A stretch of DNA of 40,741 nucleotides from Sulfurovum sp. Lineage in GTDB: Bacteria > Campylobacterota > Campylobacteria > Campylobacterales > Sulfurovaceae. The notes below the pieces were generated by a model, which was given only the letters and a program-made list of their open reading frames with translations, had not been told where the DNA came from and ran no database searches. Position 1 is the stretch's first letter. Each line of letters begins with the position of its first letter. The position numbers and the translations under genes are program-made. The stretch is from positions 1 to 40,741 of the forward strand of contig DYLZ01000006.1 in the NCBI GenBank assembly GCA_020721775.1. The letters run 5' to 3'. Below, piece after piece: positions 13,618 to 15,649 of the stretch.

Positions 13618-14825
13618 TTAATCCTTTGCGAGGAATGAAAGATCTGATCTTTGATGATAGTAAAAAATATCAATATATAATACAAACAGCATCAAATATT
13701 GCAAAAAACTACGGATATGAATATATCGAAACACCTATACTGGAAGAGACGGCGCTTTTTAAGCGATCTGTCGGTGAGAGCAGTGATATAATAGGAAAAG
13801 AGATGTATCAATTTAGAGATAAGGGTGATAATGATGTTTGTATGAGACCTGAAGGTACAGCCGGAGTGGTGAGAGCATTTATCTCAAACAAGCTTGACCG
13901 TCAAGATGCTAATTACCGTTTTTATTATCATGGCTCTATGTTTAGATACGAAAGACCTCAAAAAGGACGCCTAAGATCATTTCATCAGTTTGGATGCGAG
14001 AGTTTCAAAGAGGCAAGCGTGTATGAGGACTTTATGCTTATTTCTATGATAAAAGATATATTTGATGCTCTAAATATCGACTTTGCTTTGAAGATAAATT
14101 CTCTTGGATGCAAGGAGTGTATGCCGCTATATAGAACTAAACTTGTCTCTTTTTTGGAAAATATCAAAGATGATCTATGTGAAGATTGCAATCGTCGTAT
14201 AGCTACCAATCCAATTAGAGTACTTGACTGTAAAAATGAGAAGTGTCAAGCGCTTTTACAAACATCACCTAAGCTGATTGACAATCTTTGCGATAGCTGC
14301 AATAACGATTTTAATAAACTTCGGCAATTGTTAAATGAAGCAAATATTCCTTACGAAGTCGATACAAATTTGGTGAGAGGACTTGATTATTATAATAAAA
14401 CGGCATTCGAATTTATAAGCAATAATATAGGAAGCCAATCAGCCATAGCCGGTGGAGGCAGATATGACAGGCTTGTTGAGTTTTTAGACGGCAAACCTAC
14501 GCCGGCTGTCGGCTTTGCCTTGGGGATAGAAAGGATCATGGATCTTGTGGCAGTGCCTGAGCTAAATAGAGAAGGCTTATATCTTGGCGGCATGAACGAA
14601 GAGTCTATTAATTTGCTTTTACAGATTGCCAGACGGCAGTTAAAGAGCCAAAAAGTAACAATTCAATACAAGCCAAAAAGCCTAAAAGCTCATCTAAGAT
14701 CAGCAGACAAAGCAGGTGCTAAAGCCATAGGCATAATCGGAGATGATGAATTATTGAGCGGTACTATATGGTTGAAAGATCTGGAAACAAAAGAAGAAAA
14801 AACTATCAAAATAGAAGATTTTTAA
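13614..14825 (+). CDS. hisS: Histidyl-tRNA synthetase
   Basis: Class II synthetase charging tRNA-His. Motif 2 is in YHGSMFRYERPQKGRLRSFH, the histidine-specific signatures are LVRGLDYYNKTAFEF and AGGGRYDRL, and motif 3 is in PAVGFALGIERIM. A cysteine-rich insert (CKEC ... CEDC ... CKNEKC ... CDSC, about residues 162-225) could bind zinc; similar inserts occur in many bacterial HisRS. The C-terminal anticodon domain follows from about 320. ATG 13614 is preferred over an in-frame ATG at 13602 because GGGAG at 13604-13608 is correctly spaced and the product then begins MINPLRGMKDL as in the family. This gives 403 residues. Confidence 0.95.
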   Translation: MINPLRGMKDLIFDDSKKYQYIIQTASNIAKNYGYEYIETPILEETALFKRSVGESSDIIGKEMYQFRDKGDNDVCMRPEGTAGVVRAFISNKLDRQDANYRFYYHGSMFRYERPQKGRLRSFHQFGCESFKEASVYEDFMLISMIKDIFDALNIDFALKINSLGCKECMPLYRTKLVSFLENIKDDLCEDCNRRIATNPIRVLDCKNEKCQALLQTSPKLIDNLCDSCNNDFNKLRQLLNEANIPYEVDTNLVRGLDYYNKTAFEFISNNIGSQSAIAGGGRYDRLVEFLDGKPTPAVGFALGIERIMDLVAVPELNREGLYLGGMNEESINLLLQIARRQLKSQKVTIQYKPKSLKAHLRSADKAGAKAIGIIGDDELLSGTIWLKDLETKEEKTIKIEDF

Positions 14826-14843
14826 CTCTTATTTGGTAAATTT

Positions 14844-14849
14844 TATAAT
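14844..14849 (+). promoter_or_regulatory. -10 box in front of the structured RNA candidate
   Basis: TATAAT begins 19 bases after the hisS stop and its end lies 5 bases before the first base of the outer stem of the structured element. A start about 7 bases downstream would fall at the base of the stem. No -35 is evident. Confidence 0.45.
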
Positions 14850-14854
14850 AATTA

Positions 14855-14965
14855 AATCCTCTGAATAAATCCTGATAGACAATTTTGCCAGGCAGCTCGA
14901 AGGCGTTAGCTAGCGGGGTTCCCGTCGTGGCAAACTCTTGGCTTGAATGGTTTGTTCAGAGGGTT
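14855..14965 (+). ncRNA. Candidate structured small RNA, family not recognised
   Basis: Between the convergent ends of hisS and yggS lies a 111-base element with strong pairing. The outer stem pairs 14855-14872 with 14949-14965 (AATCCTCTGAA against TTCAGAGGGTT, then AAA/TTT and CC/GG past one bulge and two G-U pairs). An asymmetric internal loop (about 11 and 14 bases) follows, then a 7-bp stem TTTGCCA (14884-14890) / TGGCAAA (14928-14934). Inside that are two hairpins: GCAGCT/AGCTAGC around 14892-14914 and CGGG/CCCG at 14914-14924. The core 14887-14931 is about two thirds G+C by my count, in an AT-rich setting. A TATAAT sits just upstream on the plus strand. No ORF fits. The closing stem plus internal bubble recalls 6S RNA, but it is far too short and lacks a known family core. 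The strand is inferred from the -10 box. Confidence 0.5.
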
Positions 14966-14968
14966 CAA

Positions 14969-15649
14969 TTATTCTTGAAACAAAGAAGAACCAATTCTGA
15001 CCATATTTGACCCGCATTTAATGGCAAGTTCGAAATCAGAGCTCATTCCCATAGAACAGATATTTGCGCCGGCTGATTGAAGTTTTTCGTATATTTTATA
15101 AGTTGTTTCAAAACTGTTTTGAATAAGTTTTGTATCATCAGTATGCGCTCCAATGGTCATAACGCCTTGAAGTTTTATATGCGGGCAAATTTCAGTTATT
15201 TGCAGATATGTTTCGATCGCGCTTTGTGGGGAGACTCCACTTTTTGTAGATTCATTTGAGCTATTTATCTCCAATAGACAATTTAATGTTTGATTTTTAT
15301 TTATTAATTTTTTTTCCAGTTCTCTCGCAAGCTCTATGCTGTCCAATGCTTGAAAAAGCGAAGGCTTTATATCTAAAAGTTTATTTATTTTATTTTTTTG
15401 TAATGTCCCTATCATATGCCATTCGAGCGGTAAATTTTCAAGCTCAATTGCTCTAGCTTCAAGCTGTTGAACATGGTTTTCTCCAAATGCTCTTTGGCCA
15501 AGAGAGTAAAGTGTTTTGATATTTTCTACAGTAGTGTATTTACTGACGGCAATCATATGAACTATTTGATGCTCATTTACTTCAAGCCTTGCTTTTTCGA
15601 TCTTCCAAATCACATCATCAAGATTTTTTCTAAGTATCTCTTTGTTCAT
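14969..15649 (-). CDS. yggS: YggS family PLP-binding protein (PLP homeostasis protein)
   Basis: This is a single-domain TIM-barrel protein that binds pyridoxal phosphate and helps keep vitamin B6 and amino-acid pools balanced; no enzyme activity is established. The PLP lysine is K37 in IAVSK, followed by RAFGENHVQQL. The C-terminal phosphate site is in SMGMSSDFELAIKCGSNMVRIG. At 226 residues the length is usual. ATG 15649 is chosen: GGGG stands about seven bases upstream and the protein then begins MNKEILRKNL. A TTG at 15661 would overlap rseP and add four residues. It is the last gene of the pyrD-to-yggS operon, 2 bases after rseP, and its 3' end borders the structured RNA candidate. Confidence 0.93.
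   Translation of the reverse strand: MNKEILRKNLDDVIWKIEKARLEVNEHQIVHMIAVSKYTTVENIKTLYSLGQRAFGENHVQQLEARAIELENLPLEWHMIGTLQKNKINKLLDIKPSLFQALDSIELARELEKKLINKNQTLNCLLEINSSNESTKSGVSPQSAIETYLQITEICPHIKLQGVMTIGAHTDDTKLIQNSFETTYKIYEKLQSAGANICSMGMSSDFELAIKCGSNMVRIGSSLFQE

Follow-up and report, generated by a model that had tools for sequence, protein, structure and literature searches.

A dispersed MITE of probable IS5 type with a structured core in Campylobacterales

The hairpin between hisS and yggS in the window, by which we mean the whole analysed stretch of 40,741 nucleotides from Sulfurovum sp., is one of 22 dispersed, near-full-length copies of a mobile element in its own genome assembly (G000; 1.2 Mb in 67 contigs). 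We hold with good, though not complete, confidence that this element is an IS5-type MITE in which the arms of the outermost helix (P1) act as terminal repeats and enclose a conserved structured core (P2–P5; Table 1). The element unites two categories that are usually separate, namely the MITE, in which normally only the ends matter, and a strongly covarying structured nucleic acid. A new MITE family alone is an ordinary find; what sets this one apart is the order-wide structured core, the shifting ends, the orientation bias in prophages and the inversion in place. It raises the testable question of whether the core of a MITE can be under selection as a functional module and persist beyond its own terminal repeats. 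Additionally, the covariance model of the element is now usable for annotation, and the case warns that hairpins found in single genomes of this phylum may be mobile repeats. In the open-access literature searched, we found no account of an element of this kind from the phylum, an absence that is not proof of novelty.

Table 1. Parts of the element copy between hisS and yggS (positions in the window)
Feature	Position	Strand	Basis or remark
Whole mobile element	14854–14966 (113 bp)	+ (core orientation)	Sharp edges in 22-copy alignment; covariance-model matches span positions 1–112
Left target site duplication AATT	14850–14853	.	Perfect 4-bp direct repeats in 16 of 22 copies
Right target site duplication AATT	14967–14970	.	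Overlaps yggS stop codon (14969–14971)
Left terminal inverted repeat, P1 5' arm AAATCCTCTGAATAAATC	14854–14871	+	Copy alignment; IS5-type ends
Right terminal inverted repeat, P1 3' arm GGTTTGTTCAGAGGGTTC	14949–14966	+	Copy alignment, covariation
P2 5' arm GACAA	14878–14882	+	Partner 14938–14942; double changes in 4 of 5 pairs in 40 relatives
P2 3' arm TTGGC	14938–14942	+	Covariation in 40 relatives
P3 5' arm TTTGCC	14884–14889	+	Partner 14929–14934 (GGCAAA)
P3 3' arm GGCAAA	14929–14934	+	Covariation
P4 5' arm	14890–14896	+	Partner 14921–14927; 4 of 7 pairs form in window copy
P4 3' arm	14921–14927	+	Covariation
Apical hairpin P5, CGA..GGC GTTA GCT..GCG	14898–14915	+	Relatives' alignment, covariation
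TATAAT	14844–14849	+	Flanking target DNA, outside repeated unit

The hisS–yggS hairpin and its copies

The intergenic gap measures 143 bases, with hisS (forward strand) ending at 14825 and yggS (reverse strand) at 14969. The predicted fold of positions 14830–14975 reached −48.9 kcal/mol, compared with −32.0 ± 3.5 for shuffled sequences (z −4.79; 0/200), which supports the hairpin proposed by the sequence-only reading, and the reverse strand of the region folds too, though more weakly (−36.7, z −3.81). The proposed layout stood as a hairpin and was slightly off in its apical part, where P4 is partly lost in the window copy and kept in relatives. Searches against Rfam 15 at the gathering score assigned no family to the element in the window or at 20 other loci, so that its description as unrecognised was borne out, and a copy in a second genome (G255, introduced below) likewise gave no credible match. 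When E values up to 10 were allowed for the window, only eukaryotic and archaeal snoRNA/scaRNA families were listed. The judgement that the structure is not a riboswitch was also right.

The same reading had raised the possibility of a trans-acting small RNA gene, 6S-like or otherwise regulatory, transcribed from the TATAAT motif. Its attractions are the position of TATAAT five bases ahead of the stem, the stable fold and the strong covariation described below. However, conservation among the 22 copies does not extend to the flanks or to the promoter within them, and TATAAT lies within 40 bases upstream of only three copies; the motif falls outside the repeated unit and is insertion-target DNA and no part of the element, so that its interpretation as the structure's own promoter is not supported. 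The resemblance to 6S RNA (RF00013) consists of a long closing stem with an internal loop, but the element, at about 113 nt and in dispersed mobile copies, gave no match to that family even at E = 10, leaving the 6S-like interpretation unsupported. Nor is it a conserved hisS-linked RNA of the lineage, since searches did not find it in any of the ten congeners; in these, the hisS neighborhood is rearranged and hisS–yggS is not syntenic, and no exact empty site was seen. The 22 dispersed copies, most of them flanked by perfect target duplications, imply that the window structure is not a gene at one locus and rule out the single-copy small RNA gene originally suggested, and a trans-acting gene transcribed from TATAAT is, in our estimation, highly improbable.

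The G000 copies are spread over many contigs, exhibit 86–100% identity and range from 103 to 115 bp, with no transposase inside. Their alignment has sharp edges (GAATCCTCTGAATAAA...TTTGTTCAGAGGGTTC) beyond which the flanks are otherwise unrelated, and GAAYCCTCTGAAYAAA is present at both termini as terminal inverted repeats; in the window copy, the first base of the left arm is mutated from G. The perfect 4-bp duplications found at 16 of the 22 copies compare with a mean of 4.85 and a maximum of 12 for permuted flanks (0/20,000), and no other duplication length was enriched in this set. The duplicated sequences comprise AATT, AAAT, AATA, AAGT, AAGA, AATC and TATT, of which the non-palindromic ones (all except AATT) are direct and not inverted.

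Some weaker matches were set aside. Those in G052, G055 and G036 are short and attributed to chance, at least two of them lying inside the end of a conserved oxidoreductase gene, and a match on contig C33 covers only 16 bases, within a small hairpin that follows a gene. At a separate locus (L024:2117–2272), a match to the Rfam family HPnc0260 (68 bits) and a tRNA gene overlap on opposite strands; the match adjoins a copy of the element.

Terminal repeats and their IS5-family relatives

Complete IS5-family insertion sequences in related families have inverted repeats that match the ends of the element (GAAYCCTCTGAAYAA). A terminal-repeat search revealed a 1.21-kb insertion sequence in G420 that carries the repeat at both ends and encodes a 326-aa transposase, with matches to the NCBIfam IS5 family NF033581 (E = 3.7e-77) and to Pfam DDE_Tnp_1 (PF01609). 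Relatives in G200 and G249 are 60–68% identical to it and share its ends, and the complete elements in these three genomes measure 1.21–1.24 kb; two G249 copies are bordered by the duplications TATT and AATT. The element thus resembles IS5-family insertion sequences (NF033581, transpos_IS5_4) in its near-identical terminal repeats (GAACCCTCTGAAWAA, the IS5-type ends found at L204–L208) and in its 4-bp AT-rich duplications, and differs from them in having no transposase and no visible similarity past the ends. Elements that share this terminal repeat (GAACCCTCTGAATAA) but have a diverged core were also found in f6, another family of the order, with the 4-bp duplications CATT, GATA, AATA, AATT and AAAT. 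Because its IS5 counterparts share both the ends and the 4-bp duplications, the window element is best read, on this comparison, as a MITE of IS5-type elements, presumably moved by a transposase absent from the assembly.

Within the G000 assembly, no IS5-type transposase with the element's ends was found, none of the insertion sequences bears its terminal repeats, and all terminal-repeat sites lie within element copies, except for one two-mismatch site on contig C30. The insertion sequences on contig C15 were considered as a parent and rejected, given that their ends differ from those of the element. One of them (L045) is bounded by GGGTCTGGTAAACTTTA repeats, has a reading frame split in two and adjoins an IS1182-like transposase, and neither has the ends of the MITE. 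Terminal-repeat pattern matches in G242, G232, G337, G086 and G324 lie inside genes and were dismissed as chance. In the mechanism that we propose, the P1 arms would serve as terminal inverted repeats for an IS5-family transposase, which would make cuts staggered by 4 bases in AT-rich intergenic DNA and thereby generate the 4-bp duplications; because none was found in the G000 assembly, this enzyme probably worked in trans or has since been lost.

Distribution, covariation and polarity of the core

An order-wide BLAST search with the G000 element returned one other genome, the uncultured Nitratiruptor MAG G255 (CAJXMB01), which harbors about nine copies with a related core. The G000 and G255 copies together were used to build a covariance model (R1), which yielded full-length matches in many further genomes, and the refined model (R2) detected the core in 73 of 399 Campylobacterales genomes, about one-fifth, spread through 22 of 87 genera and ten families (f1, f6, f8, f9, f10, f15, f16, f17, f18 and f20). 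The earlier characterization as lineage-specific therefore holds for the copies in G000 only and not for the core. An inspected sample of the weaker R2 matches conserves the same architecture as the stronger ones, consisting of the P1 outer arms, an internal loop, P2 (about 5 bp), P3 (6 bp), P4 (7 bp) and the P5 hairpin. The blocks GAAACAA, CGAUGGG..CCCAUCG, GUG and CUCUUGUUGAG are conserved across families, and the P3 helix of relatives takes forms such as UUUGUUC/GAACAA, UUAUCC/GGAUAA and UUUGAGC/CUCAA.

A Helicobacter-like match in G139, 68 nt long in the first search, was lost with R2 at E 0.001, and a 46-nt core-like match on the viral contig L175 lies inside a GC-rich coding region and was taken as chance. 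BLAST of the window copy against phages and plasmids gave nothing useful, and neither the prophage version nor the f20 version yielded anything. Among the accepted copies, a 168-nt variant of f10 (L140:5078–5245, in G251) bears an extra, very stable hairpin within the core, and in an f8 genome (G398:C1:2407325–2407548; L193) two copies lie in opposite orientation five bases apart.

In an alignment of 40 sequences, both sides change in at least one sequence for 36 of the 42 pairs. The double-change cells numbered 373, whereas shuffles gave 108.5 ± 10.1 (0/500) and slid controls no more than 97, and the covariation among relatives that the sequence-only reading had proposed as a check is accordingly strong. 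When P1 was left out, the core retained 150 such cells, against 44.8 ± 6.8, with slid controls at 30 or fewer. The core covariation within G000 and G255 alone was not significant, and hence the covariation claim rests on the wider set. In P1, turnover of the terminal repeats or repair templated by the hairpin, and not selection on RNA, may account for the covariation.

A further asymmetry lies in the wobble pairs. On the core-sense strand, counted per independent locus, 45 G-U were found against 15 A-C (p = 1.3e-4), a difference possibly inflated by the collection of copies with a G-U-tolerant covariance model. The ratio is the same whichever way the element points relative to the mRNA (31:9 and 13:4), a pattern more in keeping with a fixed-polarity folded strand that is the element's own than with one of the host mRNA. 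These data also bear on the possibility that the core is a chance palindrome or plain MITE loop without function, its pairing kept only by strand-switching hairpin repair. Strand switching keeps arms complementary and would also flip the element, and flips were indeed seen (next section). However, a neutral loop should drift, whereas the four conserved blocks and the wobble asymmetry persist across families, and we regard a functionless core as quite unlikely.

The arms and the core follow different patterns of similarity. Compared with the G000 arms, similarity amounts to 0.93 for the G420 insertion sequence, 0.90 for the f6 elements and 0.76 for G255, and compared with the G000 core, to 0.80 for G255 and 0.60 for f6; the f8 and f20 loci exhibit unrelated P1 arms, even within one genome. 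The simplest reading, drawn from similarity and not from trees, would be that core and ends have separate histories, the core presumably comprising a module retained through changes of terminal repeat. We think it most probable that the core is a hairpin of fixed polarity that serves the element; as a folded single strand, of RNA or of single-stranded DNA that becomes exposed, it would help to maintain or move the element itself. Only tentatively do we extend this to a structured core that is order-wide and older than its ends, recruits the terminal repeats of successive transposases, rides Campylobacter prophages and has its own function, as a regulatory RNA or single-stranded DNA signal, on one fixed strand.

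Genomic context, orientation and inversion in place

Outside G000 and G255, 37 of the 43 scored chromosomal copies are located between co-directional genes, for example at grpE-dnaK, priA-ispG, guaB-metX and mnmE-purL (names read from translations), and many f20 species keep the element at orthologous positions in operons. An apparent association with methionine and cysteine genes was suggestive and was discounted, as few orthologous loci were counted many times. In prophages, all 29 scored copies likewise lie between co-directional genes. Nine copies occur within 34 kb of a G548 prophage that encodes an integrase, a primase, a portal and a major head protein, and 24 more in 68 kb of the viral contigs L176–L183; the host genus of these prophages is probably Campylobacter. 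Relative to the flanking genes, every one of the 29 scorable prophage copies is antisense (p = 4e-9, copies of the same prophage not being independent).

These positions could indicate a cis-acting operon hairpin, in which the transcribed element processes or stabilises polycistronic mRNA (by RNase III cutting of P1 or by attenuation) and selection on the mRNA keeps both structure and position. The co-directional settings on chromosomes and in prophages and the conservation of positions across species speak for it. On the other hand, the orientation of the 37 chromosomal copies relative to the mRNA is not conserved (21 antisense, 16 sense) and flips at orthologous loci, the better-folding strand is outside the mRNA in 29 of 29 scored prophage copies and 10 of 12 scorable G000 copies (10 antisense to 2 sense, p = 0.04), and five G000 copies, that of the window among them, sit between convergent genes. 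Selection on the mRNA thus seems a possible but rather doubtful explanation. Under the preferred reading of a hairpin that serves the element, the operon copies would be tolerated transcribed hairpins with a possible effect on mRNA processing, as has been described for the ERIC and Correia repeats (PMC2229807, PMC10969869). Their retention at orthologous operon positions, together with the uniformly antisense prophage copies, is nevertheless a hint of host or phage selection beyond that on a plain MITE.

Comparison of orthologous 10-kb loci revealed elements inverted in place between collinear flanks. This was observed upstream of metE (L127 vs. L128/L133), at guaB-metX (L131 vs. L144) and at a sulfite-reductase locus (L148 vs. 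L157/L159 and L151 vs. L154), all named from translations. Upstream of metE, the whole element is inverted (L127:5030–5140 vs. L128:5021–5131) between species with about 88% identity in their flanks, which suggests that the flip rate may be fairly fast. Such flips could come about if the P1 arms recombine with each other or if strands are switched between them.

The inversions, the abundance and uniform orientation of the element in prophages and a strand polarity fixed whatever the direction of transcription would also fit a single-stranded DNA recognition structure, used by a phage or host recombinase or in replication or packaging, with RNA irrelevant. No linked enzyme was found, however, and the 4-bp duplications and terminal repeats already account for movement in G000 and f6; we consider a purely DNA-level role unlikely.

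Several known repeats provide a comparison. The ERIC/IRU repeats of enterobacteria (127 bp) are similarly intergenic, multi-copy and palindromic with target duplications, and are cotranscribed with neighboring genes and affect mRNA stability (PMC2229807, PMC10969869). On the published description of ERIC (PMC2229807), we judge the present element distinct in its terminal repeats, in the length of its duplications and in its host range. The terminal repeats of ERIC are short, with TA ends, whereas those of the element are of IS5 type and 15–18 bp long; the element also has duplications of 4 bp, and its core is conserved although the terminal repeats around it differ. The Correia/NEMIS element of Neisseria is a MITE with terminal repeats of about 24 bp, and its transcripts form folds that RNase III can cleave (PMC2229807); the present element differs from it in size, ends and duplication, and in being an order-wide family with a structurally conserved core.

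Some further features were observed around the copies. In L129 and L130 (G548) and in L176–L183, many copies are located between structural and replication genes and possess short flanks that are conserved (CTTTCCAA / ACCTAAA), along with pieces of other palindromes. The P3 region of the prophage copies and of some f10 copies (L130, L135, L137, L176–L183) contains TTATCCACA, which we take to be the classical DnaA-box consensus; the likeness is probably a coincidence with a variable helix. Finally, a palindrome, TTTACATGTAAA or TTACATGTAA, occurs a few dozen bases from many f20 copies and one f10 copy (L121, L126, L131, L137, L142, L144, L147 and L150) and often adjoins a ribosome-binding site.
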